From: Deltaproteobacteria bacterium
GTDB lineage: Bacteria; Desulfobacterota; GWC2-55-46; DRQE01
Assembly: GCA_015492495.1 (NCBI GenBank)
Contig: WGEY01000035.1
Coordinates: 1-55,918 of the forward strand
Length of the DNA stretch: 55,918 nucleotides
Direction of reading: 5' to 3'
Both the position numbers and the translations under genes were made by a program. Below the pieces are notes generated by a model. The model was not told the origin of the DNA. It ran no database searches and worked only from the letters and a program-made list of their open reading frames with translations. This document shows, in pieces, positions 2,463-55,918 of this stretch; within the stretch, counting starts at the first letter, position 1; every line of letters begins with the position of its first letter.

Positions 2463-4003
2463 CACACAAACCTCCTCGTCTTCAAACTCGAAAAGATTAT
2501 AATAGCCGAAAATAGTGCGTTTGTACAGGGGAAAAAGAGCGTATGTCTTGAAAAAAACGTGGTTTTTCCCCGTTTAAGCCCGACCTCTCCGACGAGCACC
2601 TCGCGGCTGAGGAGCTGCGTCCTGGAGATGACCCTTCCAACCGGGTCCACCAGTGCGCTTATGCCGGTATTGGCTGAACGAACAAGAAAGACCCTGTTCT
2701 CCACGGCCCTCAGGATAGCCTTGTCGAAGTGTTGATAAGGCGCCGATGTCCTGCCGAACCATGCGTCGTTCGTGATGTTTACAAGCAGAGAGGCGCCGTT
2801 GTTCATGAAGGAAGCCGCCATCCCCGGGAAGATCGCCTCGTAGCAGATGAGGACGCCGATCCCCTCCCTCGAACCGTTGTTTATGAACTCGAGGGGAAAG
2901 GTTCCCCTGCCCGGAACAAAGTCCCCGGCGCCGGCCGTAAGCTTCCTGGCGAAGAAAAGGAGCCTTTTAAGCGGCACGTACTCGCCGAAGGGCACGAGAT
3001 GGACCTTGTCGTACCTGCCGGATACAAGCCCGGAGGGATCTATGAGATACGCGCTGTTAAGCAGGTTGACGCCGCCAGCGGACCGGTCGTATGTATAGTG
3101 CGGCGCACCGGTAAGAAGGTACGCCCCTGTCTCGACCGGTATCCTCGACACAAGGTCCCTCATTTCCCTGTCGTAGGCGAGGTAAAAGGGCATGGCCGTC
3201 TCTGGAAAGACTATGAACTCCGCCCCATCCTCCTTCGCCTTGGTGCTCAGCCTGCGGTAGAGGTTTACGGTTTCGAGCTTAAGGGAGGGATTCCACTTCA
3301 ACGACTGCTCGATATTGCCCTGCACAACCCCCACCCTGAGCCTCCTCCAGCCCGCAACCTCCCTGTCGACCTTATCGGTCCTCACCACACCGTAACCCAG
3401 GACCAGTACGGTCGCAAGAAGTGCTGTCGCCGCAACATGGACGCGGCCTCGTCCCCTTGCCGGGCCGCGCCAGGCGAGGTATATCGCTGTGTTGATCATA
3501 ACCACCCAGAACGATACCCCCCACACCCCGGTTATGTCGGCTATCTGTATGAGCGGAAGGTATGCGACCTGTGAGTACCCCATGAGCACCCAAGGAAAGC
3601 CGGTAAACAACGCACCCCTCAGGTACTCCAGTACAACCCAGAGCGACGGCAAAAAAAGGAGCCTCACGAGCGGTCCGCTGCGCTCCGTCACCTTGAAGCC
3701 CAGCGCGAAGAGGCCCACGAAGACGGCGAGGTACGAGGCCAGAAGGAGCATGACCCCAGTACCCGCCGCAAGGGAGACCCCTCCGTAGAAGTACATGGAG
3801 TGAACCACCCAGTAGACCGTTCCAAGGAAGAAGAAGAAGCCCCATGCCCAGCCGAGCAAAAAGGACCTTCGTGTGCCTGCGCCTTCGAGGGCGAAAAGGA
3901 ACGGAACGAGCACCGCCCATGCGACAAAGCCTTTGTCGAACGGCCCGAACGCGGCCACGGCCGCAAGCCCTGATATGATGGAAAGGAGTATCCTCTTCTT
4001 CAT
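2462..4003 (-). CDS. lnt: Apolipoprotein N-acyltransferase
   Basis: Lnt adds the third acyl chain to the N-terminal cysteine of lipoproteins in the inner membrane, before Lol sorting. At 513 residues it has the normal length. The first 210 residues form about six to seven membrane helices. The rest is a carbon-nitrogen hydrolase domain with the expected triad: Glu268 (VFPETAMPF), Lys333 (DKVHLVPFG) and Cys387 (LICYEA). I chose the ATG at 4003 because it overlaps the stop of the preceding gene (ATGA) and starts a good MKKRILLS membrane anchor; the open frame runs further upstream, but that part lies inside the neighbour. The stop overlaps the prfB start by one base. Confidence 0.96.
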   Translation of the reverse strand: MKKRILLSIISGLAAVAAFGPFDKGFVAWAVLVPFLFALEGAGTRRSFLLGWAWGFFFFLGTVYWVVHSMYFYGGVSLAAGTGVMLLLASYLAVFVGLFALGFKVTERSGPLVRLLFLPSLWVVLEYLRGALFTGFPWVLMGYSQVAYLPLIQIADITGVWGVSFWVVMINTAIYLAWRGPARGRGRVHVAATALLATVLVLGYGVVRTDKVDREVAGWRRLRVGVVQGNIEQSLKWNPSLKLETVNLYRRLSTKAKEDGAEFIVFPETAMPFYLAYDREMRDLVSRIPVETGAYLLTGAPHYTYDRSAGGVNLLNSAYLIDPSGLVSGRYDKVHLVPFGEYVPLKRLLFFARKLTAGAGDFVPGRGTFPLEFINNGSREGIGVLICYEAIFPGMAASFMNNGASLLVNITNDAWFGRTSAPYQHFDKAILRAVENRVFLVRSANTGISALVDPVGRVISRTQLLSREVLVGEVGLKRGKTTFFSRHTLFFPCTNALFSAIIIFSSLKTRRFV

Positions 4004-55525: not shown

Positions 55526-55638
55526 CTGTTGATAGCCAGGCACCCTTGCGGCACATGGATAAAGGCGCTTACCGTTGCTTCCTTCCGGACCTGGCGGGTT
55601 TCACGCCCCTCCATTGCGCAAGACCCGGCTATCAACAG
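55526..55638 (-). ncRNA. ffs: Signal recognition particle RNA (4.5S type)
   Basis: On the minus strand a long hairpin closed by CTGTTGATAGCC / GGCTATCAACAG. Its tip contains CAGGTCCGGAAGGAAGCA, the conserved Ffh-binding domain with the GGAA tetraloop. The length of about 113 bases fits small bacterial SRP RNA. It lies next to dnaX, as in many bacteria. Confidence 0.95.
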
Positions 55639-55673
55639 TAACCGTAATCAGCACGCTCCATACCTCTCAAAAA

Positions 55674-55690
55674 TGGCGGAGAGAGGGATT
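55674..55690 (-). pseudogene. Broken copy of the tRNA-Ser 3' end
   Basis: TGGCGGAGAGAGGGATT is the same 3' end as the tRNA-Ser at 55895, with two bases missing from the acceptor stem and the same five A before it. Its continuation CGAACCCTCC, the rest of the T arm, appears only at 55847, after two 78-base tandem units. The copy is thus split inside the T loop. Confidence 0.65.
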
Positions 55691-55846
55691 GTCCGCCTGC
55701 GGCGGACCCGGTATGGTCGGTATCTTCAATATCGTGCCTCTCGCCTTCGGCTCAACGCACACTCCGGTGTCCGCCTGCGGCGGACCCGGTATGGTCGGTA
55801 TCTTCAATATCGTGCGTCTCGCCTTCGGCTCAACGCACACTCCGGT
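55691..55846. repeat. Two tandem copies of a 78-bp unit
   Basis: Units 55691-55768 and 55769-55846 differ at a single base (CGTGCCTCTC against CGTGCGTCTC). Each opens with the palindrome GTCCGCCTGCGGCGGAC and ends ACACTCCGGT. Near identity suggests a recent duplication. Removing both units restores a continuous tRNA-Ser T arm. Confidence 0.9.
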
Positions 55847-55894
55847 CGAACCCTCCGATTCCCAACTTCCCAGCCAACGGCATCTTATGAAAAA

Positions 55895-55918
55895 TGGCGG
55901 AGAGAGAGGGATTCGAAC
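55895..55918 (-). tRNA. tRNA-Ser, 3' end only (cut by window edge)
   Basis: The minus strand ends GTTCGAAT, CCCTC, TCTCTCC, G, CCA: T loop, T stem, acceptor, discriminator and encoded CCA. A discriminator G with this acceptor is typical of serine tRNAs. The anticodon lies outside the window, so the identity is likely, not certain. Confidence 0.75.

Follow-up and report, generated by a model that had tools for sequence, protein, structure and literature searches.

Bacterial islands land mainly at transfer RNA genes. Behind the tyrT gene of E. coli, the rtT repeats are arranged in tandem and all include a tRNA 3'-end copy, whose T arm is not known to be interrupted by a hairpin. The rRNA intervening sequences and the Rickettsia palindromic elements are hairpins in genes for stable RNAs, often located in loops, and their hosts are functional rRNA or protein genes. 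In Dehalococcoides, islands specific for ssrA insert into the T loop, duplicate about 20 bp of the RNA gene's 3' end as a direct repeat, accrete in tandem and leave relics (PMC3146451). REP/RAYT systems are recognized by a RAYT gene lying between two inverted repeat copies (PMC2817692), and REP palindromes are the insertion targets of IS1397 and IS621, two full insertion sequences with a transposase (PMC1525189).

We analyzed a stretch of 55,918 nucleotides, referred to as the window, which is the entire contig C35 of a 2.26-Mb draft genome (G000). Read on the minus strand, its right end consists of tRNA-Ser(CGA), a short spacer, GGAGGGTTCGA, two 78-bp units, AATCCCTCTCTCCGCCA, TTTTT, the SRP RNA gene and dnaX, with the following features.

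55895..55918, minus strand: 3' end of the functional tRNA-Ser(CGA), complete on C81:128-219(-) (151-bp overlap and ARAGORN).
55857..55889, minus strand: perhaps the 5' part of the split copy in decayed form, weakly tRNA-Ser(GGA)-like (shuffle P about 0.05).
55846..55856, minus strand: T-stem 5' strand and T loop to A58 of the split copy (GGAGGGTTCGA), from alignment to tRNA-Ser genes.
55768..55845, minus strand: 78-bp repeat unit closest to the 5' half of the T arm, the first one in the tRNA sense (repeat finder; covariance model match 55786-55853, E 1.1e-11).
55769..55785, no strand given: terminal hairpin of the first unit, GTCCGCC-GCA-GGCGGAC (sequence).
55690..55767, minus strand: second tandem unit, one base different (repeat finder; covariance model match 55708-55773).
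55691..55707, no strand given: terminal hairpin of the second unit (sequence).
55673..55689, minus strand: 3' tail of the split tRNA-Ser from T-loop position 59/60, with T-stem 3' strand, acceptor 3' strand and CCA (assigned from the sequence, the direct repeats and the alignment of T arm and tail to tRNA-Ser genes).
55531..55630, minus strand: small SRP RNA (ffs), next gene downstream and synteny anchor (Rfam RF00169, 77.5 bits).

A preliminary description of this DNA had reported a tRNA-Ser 3'-end copy broken at GGATT by two 78-bp units that differ at one base, and both the sequence and a repeat finder confirmed this arrangement. The tail of the copy (55673-55689) is followed by the units at 55690-55767 and 55768-55845, and the T arm resumes at 55846; the single-base difference costs the unit at 55690-55767 one pair of its main stem. 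The remnant reads GGATT, 156 nt and TCGAACCCTCC, or in the tRNA sense GGAGGGTTCGA and (A)ATCCC, the T base at the junction being common to both. Two direct repeats, AAAAATGGCGGAGAGAG (55669-55685 and 55890-55906) and GAGAGAGGGATT (55679-55690 and 55902-55913), mark both tRNA 3' ends, and the remnant tail, ATCCCTCTCTCCGCCA, falls 2 nt short of that of the functional gene, ATCCCTCTCTCTCCGCCA. Exactly two occurrences of the palindrome GTCCGCCTGCGGCGGAC were counted in the window, with 0 expected from shuffles. When aligned to tRNA-Ser genes, T arm and tail of the remnant reached scores of 49 to 59 (shuffles, about 19) and are clearly of tRNA-Ser type, while its 5' part showed a weak likeness to the tRNA-Ser(GGA) of two relatives, G006 and G008 (shuffle P about 0.05).

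The last 151 bases of the contig are identical to the first 151 of contig C81. Extending past the window edge through this exact overlap recovered the full tRNA-Ser(CGA), which ARAGORN placed at C81:128-219(-); C35 ends inside the same gene. Since the assembly breaks inside the repeat, the number of tandem units is at least two, its exact value not being readable from the assembly.

Counting the unit in its own genome and in relatives, as the preliminary description had proposed, revealed a family. BLAST against the same genome identified related copies on C41, after a tRNA-Arg, and on C110, after a tRNA-Glu, each in or beside a tRNA 3'-end copy. A covariance model built from six copies (R1) detected about 30 copies distributed over 14 of 59 relatives. 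With the second model (R2), the family was detected in 17 of 48 genomes of the order under strict settings and in 25 of the 33 examined under lax settings, with 1 to 44 copies each. Outside the order, none was found in a 297-genome sample of the phylum in which few candidates were scored per genome. The carriers include metagenome-assembled genomes labelled Deltaproteobacteria (Dive100_bin4.97 and SJ296) as well as DP16D_bin.2. The 78-bp unit is a copy, tandemly doubled here, of a small noncoding repeat family of a bacterial order.

The fold of each copy, read in the tRNA sense, comprises a 4-bp helix on the outside (CNGG/CCNG), a long and asymmetric loop rich in A, the main stem and, as a second hairpin, a terminal one. 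On 94 distinct copies, 92.9% of the cells were paired, and double changes were found in 164 cells compared to 48.9 in shuffles; none of 500 shuffles reached any of the measures, and slid controls were far lower. As the alignment was fitted to the model, the covariation counts are biased towards the fold, and it is the sliding control that is decisive. The outer helix covaries (CCGG/CCGG, CTGG/CCAG, CAGG/CCTG and TTGG/CCAA). With one non-pairing column pair left out, the true pairs contained G.U in 16 cells and A.C in 4, which hints modestly at an importance of the RNA strand in the tRNA sense and at selection on an RNA. The main-stem loop varies by subfamily through nested hairpins (AAA; GCAGCCGAAGGCGAG; GACTCACGAAGTGATAA; longer), as if hairpins insert into hairpin loops.

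Family copies are also dispersed without any tRNA part. The genes flanking copies are ordinary housekeeping genes, and a rough ORF count gave only a mild excess of dispersed copies in the sense of the preceding ORF. Larger dispersed multi-hairpin elements containing the same core occupy intergenic regions of G040 and G029 (L094-L107) and of G037 (L156-L157); their ends resemble TAACAGG/CCTGTTA, they often follow soon after a stop codon, and G040 alone has 44 matches.

An intact tRNA lies at most 400 nt upstream on the same strand in 22 of the 96 collected copies, while a rough estimate (about 45 tRNAs with 400 nt each in 2.2 Mb, one strand) gives an expectation well under 1; a nearby tRNA on the opposite strand was seen only once among the 96 matches (L181, beside tRNA-Phe). 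The tRNAs involved are Asn, Glu(TTC), Glu(CTC), Arg(ACG), Arg(CCG), His, Ser and Leu, and possibly Pro (L041). The linked copies, usually found behind the tRNA's own terminator, as a rule occupy the T loop of a 3' fragment of the local tRNA between positions 58 and 59, that is, between TTCGA and AT, with no target duplication or one of at most 1 nt. The fragments split in this way belong to Asn, Glu, Arg or His. As for tRNA-targeted elements, a direct repeat of the tRNA 3' end is thus paired with an intact tRNA at the other boundary: in 13 of 21 loci, the 18-nt tail behind the insert repeats the 3' end of the local tRNA without a difference, and in 3 more it agrees in at least 16 of 18 positions (the window tail being 2 nt shorter). 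The tails also track variants of the local tRNA, reading ATCTCTCCGGGCGCACCA at Arg(ACG) in G025, ATCCCTCCGGGCGCACCA in G029 and ATCCCTCCAGGCGCGCCA in G015. The tail is decayed or absent at the tRNA-linked loci L014, L032, L034, L089 and L159, and a clear tail is gone at the Leu locus and a few others. In many tRNA-linked copies (L111, L050, L042, L109, L014 and others), the core is directly preceded by the T arm of the tRNA in antisense orientation, and at L050 this arm, TTCGAACTCCCGG, matches an unusual local tRNA. According to RNA folding, the antisense arm and the T stem form mutually exclusive pairings that compete for the same strand.

Whole units are also arranged in tandem, with spacers that are either identical (L087, and C83 with a period of 151) or different (G025). 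The preliminary description had called the 78-bp repeat now expanding. This is not supported: its basis is one tandem duplication, and the tandem unit elsewhere is larger, comprising tail, spacer and repeat, as on C83.

Copies were found in other tRNA contexts too. At L033 (G031, tRNA-Glu) and L040 (G043, tRNA-Asn), the tRNA fragment starts at the anticodon loop and holds the repeat in its T loop. The flanks at the island end of these two loci are homologous (alignment score of 103 compared to a maximum of 37 in 300 shuffles), and we read them as the right ends of related islands that would have crossed over in the anticodon loop. At L030 (G001, C119), a family copy splits the T loop of a nearly complete second tRNA-Ser. 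The sole anticodon-loop case is L110 (G001), where a copy splits a tRNA-Arg copy between TACGA and AT (GGACTACGA followed by CTGG). The tRNA-Ser copy of L030 has, in addition, another small hairpin inserted in the anticodon loop, where the site is once more TTCGA.

Orthologous sites with and without an insert were observed at a tRNA-Asn locus and, with respect to six relatives, at the window locus. The tRNA-Asn locus has the same upstream gene in three genomes and harbors two units in G025, one unit with an unrelated hairpin in G012 and none in G024; these states amount to gain or loss at a single site. Another hairpin-rich element (CAATTTTGCAGGAGAGCAAAATTG...GGCCATGGATGGCCGAAGTC), unrelated to the family, sits at the same T-loop position in tRNA-Asn 3'-end copies at L205, which is on contig C40 of the window's genome after the tRNA-Asn at 3699-3775, and at L208 (G012); L207 (G003) and L112 have a similar insert. 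As a separate observation, large islands occur at tRNA-Asn in G016 (C1:2702586-2747548) and also in G013, G014, G020, G026 and G031, with direct repeats that start at the anticodon loop (tRNA positions 33-77). In G016, G020 and G009, a putative C-terminal part of a tyrosine integrase gene stands convergent after tRNA-Asn.

Among the described systems, REP/BIME sequences with RAYT share several features with the family: short, structured palindromic repeats between genes, non-autonomous and without target duplication. The family differs in its longer two-hairpin structure, its tRNA-loop copies and its lack of the GT(A/G)G head before the palindrome (copies start with CNGG, with CCNG as partner). 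Furthermore, no core copy was found near Y1_Tnp genes in 18 loci of the order, and PF01797 is absent from many carriers. Because of the missing RAYT beside copies and the different head motif, we rejected a REP/RAYT system, and the same lack of association removes a RAYT/Y1 transposase as local partner. The Dehalococcoides islands resemble our units in T-loop insertion, 3'-end direct repeat, tandem accretion and relics. However, they carry genes and serine recombinases, whereas the units described here are gene free, being either a hairpin of about 80 bp or a piece of 150 to 220 bp. With the rtT repeats, the family shares tandem repetition behind a tRNA with 3'-end copies, but here the T arm is split by a hairpin. 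In the loci scanned, Rfam rtT gave no match, and only SRP and tRNA reached the gathering score; with no covariance-model match over the repeat, a structured RNA known to Rfam (rtT, SRP or tRNA) was rejected. Unlike the hosts of rRNA intervening sequences and Rickettsia palindromic elements, those here are dispensable tRNA copies, and the family is specific to an order. IS1397 and IS621 similarly have a palindromic DNA target, but no transposase was seen here. We also rejected a MITE of a DDE transposon, given the lack of a target duplication (at most 1 nt) between TTCGA and AT. A search of viral contigs with one strict pattern gave no match that would speak for a phage origin; in genome contigs, it matched 31 loci, three of which are real (L059, L073 and L086), while the rest have no nearby tRNA and are probably coding matches. 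No description of the same structure was found in the literature, mainly the freely accessible part. We have filed the family as a dispersed palindromic repeat type with an unusual tRNA-loop preference, outside REP/RAYT and Rfam.

Our main reading, to which we assign a probability of roughly 0.55, is that the repeat is a mobile, non-autonomous hairpin, site specific in tRNA loops, that survives in dispensable tRNA copies and was later doubled in the window. Insertion in tRNA loops is recurrent and exact in position, and nearly always concerns a redundant or displaced tRNA 3'-end copy beside an intact gene. The earlier suggestion that a palindromic repeat invaded the T loop of a non-functional 3'-end copy is supported. 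An enzyme supplied in trans would insert the hairpin into tRNA loops, and the hairpin would persist only in tRNA copies that can be spared. The element in the window would have doubled after insertion, probably via slippage or unequal crossing-over. Neither a transposase nor an integrase gene lies near the window remnant, and Y1/RAYT genes are absent from many carriers and have no copy beside them. Where tails match the local tRNA exactly, gene conversion, selection or a tail-carrying element is suggested in place of passive decay. The antisense T arm upstream of many tRNA-linked copies is not accounted for by simple insertion. The G.U excess, the marginal tRNA likeness of the remnant's 5' half and the linked loci with a decayed or missing tail also speak against this reading. 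A bolder version, which we regard as possible but doubtful, is that of an undescribed class of mobile DNA of about 80 bp that lands between CGA and AT in the loop of a tRNA arm, moves in trans, spreads across the order and keeps the 3' copy identical via conversion or by carrying it.

The strongest rival is a larger mobile unit carrying the tail. The whole piece of 150 to 220 bp (tRNA 3' tail, terminator, antisense arm, T arm and hairpins) would then be a miniature integrative element or a minimal cis-mobilizable relic. A recombinase would cross over in the T loop, so that the unit's own tail restores the tRNA and the displaced tail becomes the direct repeat. The succession of an intact tRNA and a unit with an identical 18-nt tail fits this reading, as do the tandem whole-unit arrays, whose identical or different spacers are as in accretion, and the precedent of the Dehalococcoides islands, which enter the T loop of tmRNA and leave repeats of 20 bp (PMC3146451). 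We nevertheless consider it unlikely: the hairpin is present without the rest of the unit in island scars, in a full tRNA copy and in an anticodon loop, the dispersed copies have no tRNA part, and a recombinase gene is found in no unit.

Alternatively, the repeat could be a functional structured RNA downstream of tRNAs, in which a T-arm or antisense-arm hairpin together with the conserved core would serve, for example, in tRNA 3' processing, in termination or in the binding of a tRNA-modifying enzyme. The strong covariation, the excess of G.U over A.C in true pairs, the sense orientation after tRNAs, the occurrence at Asn, Glu and Arg(ACG) genes across several families and the mutually exclusive pairings of antisense arm and T stem all point in this direction. 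Yet the repeat is patchy and missing at orthologous sites, it usually lies behind the tRNA's own terminator, the same T-loop spot can hold an unrelated hairpin, and copies are dispersed among ordinary genes, which makes a role of this kind rather improbable.

The preliminary description had interpreted the tRNA-Ser copy as the possible scar of an integrated element, with the palindromic repeat invading later. This holds in kind for G031 (tRNA-Glu) and G043 (tRNA-Asn), but for the window itself it is quite improbable. The integrase that might have been expected nearby was not found: over about 9 kb on the left side of the remnant and 12 kb on its right, there is no integrase, other mobile gene or transposase, nor did the 85 proteins flanking copies elsewhere have an integrase in their top 25 Pfam families. 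Moreover, when synteny was compared in nine genomes of the family, six of the eight relatives had the order tRNA-Ser(CGA), intact second tRNA-Ser(GGA) and SRP RNA, and the remnant occupies exactly this GGA slot between tRNA-Ser(CGA) and the SRP RNA gene. Because the GGA gene is intact at the same place in six relatives, the remnant may be what is left of this tRNA-Ser(GGA) gene after decay, or else a partial duplicate, instead of an island scar. BLAST found no second tRNA-Ser(GGA) in this assembly, whose tRNA list is incomplete (Ser(GCT), Ile, His and others are also missing, and gaps are likely). Since other essential tRNAs are missing as well, nothing follows as to a reliance of the organism on the split tRNA-Ser(GGA).

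That the right-end structure is an artefact of assembly at the contig end, as the break inside the repeat and the 151-bp overlap of C35 and C81 might suggest, is hardly credible, because independent copies with the same architecture are present on C41, C110 and C83 and at other loci in more than 10 genomes, so that assembly error is not the sole cause and the tandem number alone is uncertain.

Overall, the presence of one family at the same spot in several tRNA gene pieces suggests an uncharacterised mobile hairpin with a tRNA-loop preference, and the unrelated hairpin at the same T-loop position suggests that hairpin loops are hot spots for insertion. Such a repeat would mislead the annotation of tRNAs and islands, it breaks assemblies, and it could reveal a loop-specific insertion enzyme. 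If the repeat indeed homes to the loops of left-over tRNA copies, it would provide a sensitive indicator of old integrations.
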